Shown piece after piece: positions 5,801 to 6,771 of a DNA stretch of 36,918 nucleotides; position 1 is the first letter of the stretch, and each line of letters begins with the position of its first letter. Where the stretch lies: the NCBI GenBank assembly GCA_019313825.1, contig JAFDAM010000016.1, positions 1 through 36,918 on the forward strand. The letters run 5' to 3'. Below the pieces are notes generated by a model that made no database searches, was not told the origin of the DNA, and saw nothing but the letters and a program-made list of their open reading frames with translations. Origin of the DNA: Deltaproteobacteria bacterium (GTDB lineage: Bacteria; Desulfobacterota; DSM-4660; Desulfatiglandales; HGW-15). A program made the position numbers and the translations under genes.

Positions 5801-5926
5801 ATGGCAAGACATAAAAAGATCGAAAGACGTCGTGAGATAGATCGCAGACGTCGACGCAGGAAAAAGAGGTTGAAACAGAGAGAACAAGAGAGACTTGCAC
5901 AAAATCCGGGTGAGCTAAAAAAATAG
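5801..5926 (+). CDS. Small Arg/Lys-rich basic protein (41 aa), not in the supplied ORF track
   Basis: ATG..TAG ORF preceded by ggagcag; MARHKKIERRREIDRRRRRRKKRLKQREQERLAQNPGELKK. Confidence 0.7.
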   Translation: MARHKKIERRREIDRRRRRRKKRLKQREQERLAQNPGELKK

Positions 5927-6000: not shown

Positions 6001-6168
6001 CTGAAAAGGACAGTATAGTCCGGCAATGCATATTAATAAGGTTCAGGGTTCAAAGTTCAAAGGTTCCCCGATAAACCGGGACCTCCTTAGATAGACGTAC
6101 CCCTTTGGGGTGCATATAATGCCACGTCCTTCTTCCCGTTCTACGGGAAATCTTCGATGGACGTGGAT
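6001..6168. repeat. Dispersed intergenic repeat, copy 2, with terminal hairpin
   Basis: Matches 2095-2230; 3' part forms CCACGTCC..(TTCCCG-TTCTA-CGGGAA)..GGACGTGG. Confidence 0.85.
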
Positions 6169-6370
6169 TGTTTACTCAATGAAAAAGATGGAGATTATTA
6201 GCCAAAACAGTCATTATTGCCTCCTTGACATTTATAGAGTCAGAAAGTAATAACAGGTACCCAACTCAAGTTTCGAATCTATAATAATGATGGATATCCT
6301 TTTATAGTCAATACTTGAGAGTCATATTAGGGGTAATAAATTCTTTATAACACTGTTTCTTCGAAGTTTG

Positions 6371-6512
6371 AGGAGCGGCGCATTGCGCCTTTAGGAGCAT
6401 CCCTGCGGAATTTGAAGAGCGGCCCTACGGGCCTTGAGGGATTTGCCTCAAGCGTAGCGCTCCTTAAGTGAAACACTCCTCAAACAAAGTGCTCCTAAGT
6501 GAAGCACTCTTT
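6371..6512. repeat. Array of short hairpins with 3-nt loops and different self-complementary stems
   Basis: GGCGC-att-GCGCC (6377), GGCCC-tac-GGGCC (6421), AGCG-tag-CGCT (6451), AGTG-aaa-CACT (6467), AGTG-aag-CACT (6498), with AGGAG/CTCCT-like linkers. Confidence 0.75.
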
Positions 6513-6630
6513 GCAAAATGATTTACACGGCTCCGTACCAAGCAATAAATATGATATGCTTGTCTGTATGTGAGATATAAGGGTGCGAAACTTGAGTGCC
6601 CAATTTTTATAAAACGAAAGGTAAACAGAT

Positions 6631-6771
6631 ATGGGATCCACAGCAAAGAAGACAAAGGTGATTCGAAGCCGAAAGGCAAGGCCCAACAAGGCCAATCAAA
6701 AGGCCGATAGGAAGCGGAATCAAAAGAATATCGAGATATTGAGAGATCTGGCAGCCAAGGATAAGACCTGA
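6631..6771 (+). CDS. Small basic protein (46 aa), not in the supplied ORF track
   Basis: ATG..TGA ORF: MGSTAKKTKVIRSRKARPNKANQKADRKRNQKNIEILRDLAAKDKT; weak upstream aaaggtaaacag. Confidence 0.6.
   Translation: MGSTAKKTKVIRSRKARPNKANQKADRKRNQKNIEILRDLAAKDKT

Follow-up and report, generated by a model that had tools for sequence, protein, structure and literature searches.

The DNA analysed here, called the window, is a 36.9 kb stretch that constitutes contig C28 of a desulfobacterial genome (2.27 Mb in 158 contigs, 65% complete). Between a quinolinate phosphoribosyltransferase gene and a Glx-tRNA synthetase gene, at positions 6371–6512, it carries a row of hairpins. An earlier note, made from the letters alone, took these hairpins for a structure that is conserved while its sequence varies. 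What kind of element is this row, and what is conserved in it?

Anatomy and setting of the window array

The sequence confirmed a row of hairpins, arranged as two halves around a central hairpin. All five stem-loops that the earlier note had listed, with 3-nt loops and differing stems, are present: GGCGC-ATT-GCGCC (6377–6389), GGCCC-TAC-GGGCC (6421–6433), AGCG-TAG-CGCT (6451–6461), AGTG-AAA-CACT and AGTG-AAG-CACT. The list had overlooked, however, a sixth, imperfect stem-loop (ATCCC-TGC-GGAAT, 6399–6411), the central 6-bp hairpin (6434–6451) and a switch in orientation. Each unit consists of a fixed 9-nt linker, TTGAGGAGC, followed by a palindrome of changing sequence. Three long units with 13-nt cores make up the left half on the plus strand (6368–6433), and four short units with 7-nt cores the right half on the minus strand (6452–6514). 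Linker polarity flips at the centre, with TTGAGGAGC before it (plus strand up to 6433) and GCTCCTCAA after it (minus strand from 6452). The features are as follows.

6264–6343, plus strand: 80-nt repeat abutting the array on the left
6264–6275, plus strand: left arm of the outer inverted repeat, ACTCAAGTTTCG
6368–6376, plus strand: linker (tag) 1, TTGAGGAGC; from the sequence and a covariance-model match at 6367–6398
6377–6389, plus strand: palindrome module 1, GGCGC ATT GCGCC; from the sequence and the covariance model
6390–6398, plus strand: linker 2, TTTAGGAGC; from the sequence
6399–6411, plus strand: palindrome module 2, imperfect, ATCCC TGC GGAAT
6412–6420, plus strand: linker 3, TTGAAGAGC; from the sequence
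6421–6433, plus strand: palindrome module 3, GGCCC TAC GGGCC; evidence includes the covariance model
6434–6451, no strand: array centre, TTGAGGGATTTGCCTCAA, a 6-bp hairpin like the centre in 18 other arrays
6452–6467, minus strand: short unit, core GCTACGC and linker TTAAGGAGC (read on the minus strand)
6468–6483, minus strand: short unit, core GTTTCAC and linker TTGAGGAGT (read on the minus strand); evidence includes the covariance model
6484–6498, minus strand: short unit, core ACTTTGT and linker TTAGGAGC (read on the minus strand)
6499–6514, minus strand: outermost short unit, core GCTTCAC and degenerate linker GCAAAGAGT (read on the minus strand); from the sequence
6586–6597, minus strand: right arm of the outer inverted repeat

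The outer inverted repeat around the array is 12 nt long. On both strands, a 351-nt region folded better than 100/100 shuffles (z −3.8 and −4.7). The covariance model R1, built on the unit, gave E 2.3e-9 and E 7.3e-9 for two units of the window, both of them members of its training set, and E 0.006 for a third unit of the array; the rest of the window held no match better than E 0.49. Rfam returned only a chance snoRNA match (E 0.3) and no rRNA match for the window region. A coding origin was rejected, since unit lengths (16, 20–24 and 27 nt) are mostly not multiples of three and most arrays are intergenic.

Several other features lie nearby. Two very small basic proteins of 41 and 46 aa flank the repeat region (5801–5926 and 6631–6771), and neither had a match in Pfam. 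The 80-nt repeat, which forms the left border of the array, recurs at L002 (from 1501) and L003 (1501–1580): in genome G000, contig C108 holds a 75%-identical copy that bears a related array, and contig C132 a 95%-identical copy adjoining a truncated S23 gene with heptamer-type flanks. Window 6019–6075 and L002 (1193–1245) have a second intergenic repeat in common, in which degenerate GGTTCA heptamers come after CCGGCRATGCATATTAATAAGGTTCA. Blocks resembling a hairpin-rich block at window 6085–6180 (CCCCTTTGGGG, CCCGTTCTACGGG, CCACGTCC...GGACGTGG) are present on C108 (L002, about 60–140 and 1380–1460).

A dispersed family of palindromic repeats

The pattern TTGAGGAGC-N6-30-TTGAGGA recovered palindromic arrays in several genera of the order, and its reversed control gave seven scattered matches in 85 genomes; some matches to the true pattern in other genera are not palindromic and look like chance or coding sequence. 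With a covariance model of the long unit (E ≤ 0.05), matches numbered at least 37 in G007, 28 in G015, 13 in G012, 10 in G047, 8 in G040, 7 in G028 and 4 in G000, counts that are lower bounds with 84 or 18 candidates scored per genome. Most other genomes searched with this model had no matches. In a sample of 395 genomes from the phylum, matches at E ≤ 1e-4 appeared in 12 additional genomes, mostly members of families f13, f15 and f25, and arrays are visible in genomes added from this sample. Among the contig matches listed, true arrays were recognised only in Desulfobacterota/Deltaproteobacteria (L051, L080, L102, L110 and L166). The array of G012, a genome from the same family as the window genome, also occurs in JAQYVK010000209, from a Desulfatiglandales bacterium (Desulfobacterota). 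The earlier note had set a genome-wide search for its units as a test in advance, and units do occur elsewhere, dozens of them in related Desulfobacterota. The window hairpins belong to a real, dispersed bacterial repeat family.

Two further repeats accompany these arrays. In G007 and G015, a dispersed repeat of about 200–250 nt (ggcgggtatgggtgccat...cccccatagataagtc...) adjoins many arrays (L228 about 835–1040, L230, L233, L239, L243, L244 and L253). Several arrays of G012 (L260, L264, L267 and L270) contain, between the usual linkers, a longer palindrome as a recurring module (GGCCGGTTGT..ATTAAGCATTAACAACCGGCAC).

We then compared the two arms of each palindrome. In an alignment of 22 long units, 92.7% of cells pair, and 23 cells have changed on both sides (6.0 in shuffles) against none on one side only. 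Because these 22 units had partly been picked by eye as palindromes, we gathered spacers by their flanking linkers, blind to palindromy, as distinct inter-linker sequences of 11–24 nt. At the outer four positions, 85.8% of pairs were Watson-Crick in 88 spacers (30.5% in shuffles), and 86.1% in the set later enlarged to 117 (30.7% in shuffles). All four positions paired perfectly in 79 of the 117 spacers, many of which are mutually related and do not count as independent events; shuffles gave a mean of 1.1 and a maximum of 4. The 79 perfect spacers comprise 20 different outer stems. The second part of the earlier note's test, an excess of compensatory changes over chance, thus also spoke for the observation. 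Many stems, however, are whole alternative modules that have been swapped, and not helices covarying point by point.

Selection on an RNA favours G·U on one strand, and a palindrome kept at the level of DNA has no such bias. In otherwise paired stems, G·T mismatches were no commoner than A·C (5 vs 6 in 117 spacers and 9 vs 8 in 88), numbers small enough to serve as an indication only. The stems therefore seem to be constrained as palindromes in DNA and not as paired RNA. Such strand-neutral palindromy argues against a function as RNA and is compatible with, though no proof of, action on DNA. The claim that structure is kept and stem sequence is not holds for complementarity; of selection on RNA pairing there is no sign.

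The arrays are mosaics with a fixed polarity. Units run head to tail within a string, and two strings face each other around a centre, TTGAGG...CCTCAA or a near variant; in two-half arrays the linkers point inward in 19 of 19 cases and outward in none. Most arrays are intergenic and follow closely on stop codons, at the 3' ends of genes. By simple ORF calling, 60 arrays had both neighbours called, 23 of them convergent, 35 codirectional and 2 divergent; in codirectional gaps the array lay, by median, about 20 nt behind the upstream stop and about 70 nt ahead of the following start. At the window, over 400 nt separate the array from the nearest small ORF upstream (5801–5926), and this copy is therefore atypical in this respect.

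Module order is reshuffled between related species at orthologous sites. G007 and G015, from one genus, share a common module set in differing order. At one gene end, L232 reads [gcaccagg-GAAC-ctggtgc][gcttcgc][gttccgc..gcggaac][gctgcgc..gcgcagc] and L257 reads [ggcgctgaagcgcc][gctgcgc..gcgcagc][acttcgt][gcaccagg-TTCC-ctggtgc][gggctgcaagcagccc]. The first module of L232, gcaccagg-GAAC-ctggtgc, stands at the orthologous locus in opposite orientation, as its reverse complement. Under a stricter search, no module turned up in both orientations.

Could the arrays instead be kept for work as RNA, as 3'-UTR terminators, RNase III sites or binding sites for a protein such as a CsrA-like GGA binder? 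Their place behind stop codons, the unpaired GGA motif that the linker offers between stems and the strong folding of both strands are all in keeping with this. It is nevertheless improbable, given the lack of any excess of G·T over A·C on the tagged strand, the opposite polarity of the halves, the dispersal of dozens of copies whose modules are reshuffled and whose presence between genera is patchy, and the absence of any Rfam family. A sponge RNA of the CsrB/RsmZ type, an sRNA gene made of GGA stem-loops at one locus or a few, was rejected on account of the many dispersed loci per genome and, again, Rfam.

S23 genes between the arrays

The organising unit of these arrays is larger than the row of hairpins described in the earlier note: an inward-facing repeat of two halves that sometimes encloses a gene. 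At L350 (G007), L354 (G015) and L367 (G220, from another family), a gene of PF05635 (S23, the 23S rRNA intervening-sequence, four-helix-bundle family) lies between an array and an inverted array; the L367 protein matches the Pfam model at E 2.6e-26. In G220 the right-hand array starts immediately behind a stop codon (TAG-AGGAGC). The enclosed genes are of one subtype, 'FPFEKLxVWxLAVDLAD', with the L350 protein lacking the N-terminal part that carries this motif. Homologues of at least 83% identity numbered four in the 395 genomes, the query included, and all four are enclosed (L389–L392); they count as one event because the four species share one locus. None of 26 inspected S23 homologues of at most 48% identity had GGAG arrays on its flanks, a set in which one has a single isolated match inside the gene and two end at contig ends.

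Decayed forms also occur. In the window genome, contig C112 (L271) holds an array, an internally deleted S23 gene of the same subtype and a remnant in inverse orientation; at this site the form in G015 is intact (L253/L354). G040 has truncated S23 genes of this subtype beside arrays (L384, L288). Independent S23-bearing loci number three besides decayed ones. Most arrays have no S23 gene, and in the array-bearing genomes G277 and G254 no array-enclosed S23 gene was found among those inspected. We hold with moderate confidence that the GGAG repeat family is linked with S23 genes. The window copy contains no S23 remnant, and its own link to S23 would run through its architecture and the related locus on C112 rather than through anything left at the site.

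For the S23-bearing form, presence and absence could be compared at an orthologous site. Where G220 holds 562 nt, G091 of the same genus has about 29 nt between matching flanking genes. No target-site duplication was recognisable at this single near-empty site. The inverted halves and, at the window, the 12-nt outer inverted repeat could correspond to the terminal inverted repeats of a MITE.

These observations also bear on whether the palindromes arise as a side effect of replication or repair, made and corrected between identical linkers by hairpin template switching with no dedicated enzyme. Perfect Watson-Crick arms, changes on both sides and the module that is its own reverse complement at orthologous loci would all follow from such a process. 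It leaves unexplained, however, how the units reached many loci, why the halves always face inward (19/19), the tie to one S23 subtype and the near-empty site, and the stricter search turned up no module that runs both ways; we consider it very improbable.

The two-half repeats that enclose S23 genes suggest a little-known kind of mobile element. We lean towards reading the window feature as one copy, lacking the gene, of a dispersed repeat of REP/BIME-like kind, derived from a mobile S23 element by internal deletion in the manner of a MITE. The mobile element would be represented more fully by the S23-bearing form, with the window copy as its deletion derivative, although an array could equally have captured the gene. 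The anatomy fits a mobile element that ends in hairpins and may or may not carry a cargo gene; its gene-less copies would be deletion products. BIMEs and MITEs are generally regarded as such products too. Recognition would be through the linker and the shape of the hairpin, so that stem sequence is free to vary while it stays palindromic; it would act on single-stranded DNA or, less likely, on a transcript. New modules may spread by recombination or template switching between identical linkers. Transcribed hairpins would lie in 3' UTRs and, like REPs, may have a further role in the protection or processing of mRNA ends. We know of no mobilising activity of S23 proteins, and no nuclease or reverse transcriptase was found tied to the putative element. 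Avd, the accessory protein of diversity-generating retroelements, is a member of the S23 family, so an RNA-based route is conceivable. With only linker and palindromic shape kept, GGAG arrays offer a clean natural case for DNA-shape recognition.

Relation to known repeats and to other S23 genes

The repeat family resembles REP/BIME and 23S rRNA IVS elements. A REP family normally has one stem type with subfamilies. Like REP elements and the BIMEs/REPINs associated with RAYT transposases (PMC2817692; PMC3733652; PMC6006769), GGAG arrays bring short palindromes together in dispersed intergenic clusters, with a conserved tag at the 5' foot of each and with compensatory stem changes; they too are mosaics and can flank a gene as inverted pairs. 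They differ in the tag, which is TTGAGGAGC or a close variant, and GT[AG]G at the 5' foot of the hairpin was not found in a collection that, being made pattern-first, could miss GTRG-tagged relatives. They differ also in their strict head-to-tail halves, whose units share the 9-nt linker while their stems are unrelated, and in enclosing S23 where REP/RAYT encloses a Y1 transposase; beside the units themselves no Y1 gene was found.

By analogy, RAYT transposases would be the obvious candidate mobilisers. A RAYT (Y1 tyrosine transposase) whose gene lies elsewhere in the genome could then act in trans on the arrays, which would form a new REP/BIME family with S23 genes as passengers between them. 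Several traits recall BIMEs, namely the tag joined to a hairpin, the position at 3' ends, the mosaic build of the arrays and their inverted pairing, and proteins of PF01797 were found in 14/14 genomes searched. Bracketing of rayt genes by inverted REPs and capture of rayt 3' ends in BIMEs are also known (PMC2817692). Yet at 12 Y1 loci inspected in array-bearing genomes no palindromic GGAG unit adjoined the gene, and several had hairpins of their own; Y1 genes are equally present in array-free genomes, the tag is not GT[AG]G, and stems vary inside one array. This reading seems to us rather unlikely. The Y1 (RAYT-like) genes at L170, L175 and L185 have hairpins unlike GGAG units, with CCACGGGC-gtaa-GCCCGTGG on both sides of the gene at L175.

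The 23S rRNA IVS with an S23 ORF, as in Coxiella burnetii, has complementary borders and has been described as a selfish genetic element (PMC4990558). An S23 ORF with complementary borders is likewise present at L350, L354, L367 and L389–L392 and decayed at L271, and the window copy has no S23 ORF. GGAG arrays lie between protein genes, however, and not in rRNA helices, and GGAG or heptamer borders are arrays of hairpins or of 7–8-nt repeats, whereas the IVS border is one 28-bp stem. By the tests run, the repeat family works like REP/BIME, yet lies outside both the GTAG REP/RAYT families and the rRNA IVS, failing a defining test of each.

S23 genes in several phyla often lie inside inverted arrays of degenerate 7–8-nt tandem repeats (L319–L348, L349–L388 and L555–L584), for example of GGATTAG, AAAGCTCA or GGTCATG. 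STRR/SDR repeats of cyanobacteria are short intergenic heptamer arrays. The TAACTGA repeats of Beggiatoaceae are a further case (PMC4679880). Like many S23 flanks, both are dispersed intergenic 7-nt tandem repeats; heptamer arrays as such do not form hairpins, whereas GGAG arrays do. A term search of the TAACTGA paper found no mention of S23 or intervening sequences, and we found no literature tying S23 genes to flanking repeat arrays in a search that covered few subscription journals.

To score enclosure, we aligned the upstream flank locally with the reverse-complemented downstream flank, at a cut-off of ≥32. This score was reached by 14 of 28 S23 genes in one set and by 18 of 25 in genomes reached via records of other groups (Flavobacterium, Parapedobacter, Leptolyngbyaceae, Planctomycetales, Gallionella, Geobacter and others), sets that overlap in some loci and are not to be summed. 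A first set of 38 S23 genes behaved similarly. Among controls, none of 150 random small ORFs and none of 42 genes with gaps on both sides reached it; under the identical strict gap filter, 5 of 12 S23 genes did. Half or more of the S23 genes in the tested sets are bordered by inverted repeat arrays, and the controls are not.

S23/four-helix-bundle genes occur in many bacterial phyla, and we know of no function for them outside retroelements. Tentatively, we propose that non-rRNA S23 genes may form a widespread class of small mobile elements bordered by inverted short-repeat arrays, the repeat differing with the S23 subtype and GGAG hairpin arrays bordering one of them, with S23 helping their spread or upkeep. 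If S23 elements end in hairpin and heptamer arrays, puzzling intergenic repeats and an orphan protein family would explain each other, and the role of S23 would become testable with defined substrates.
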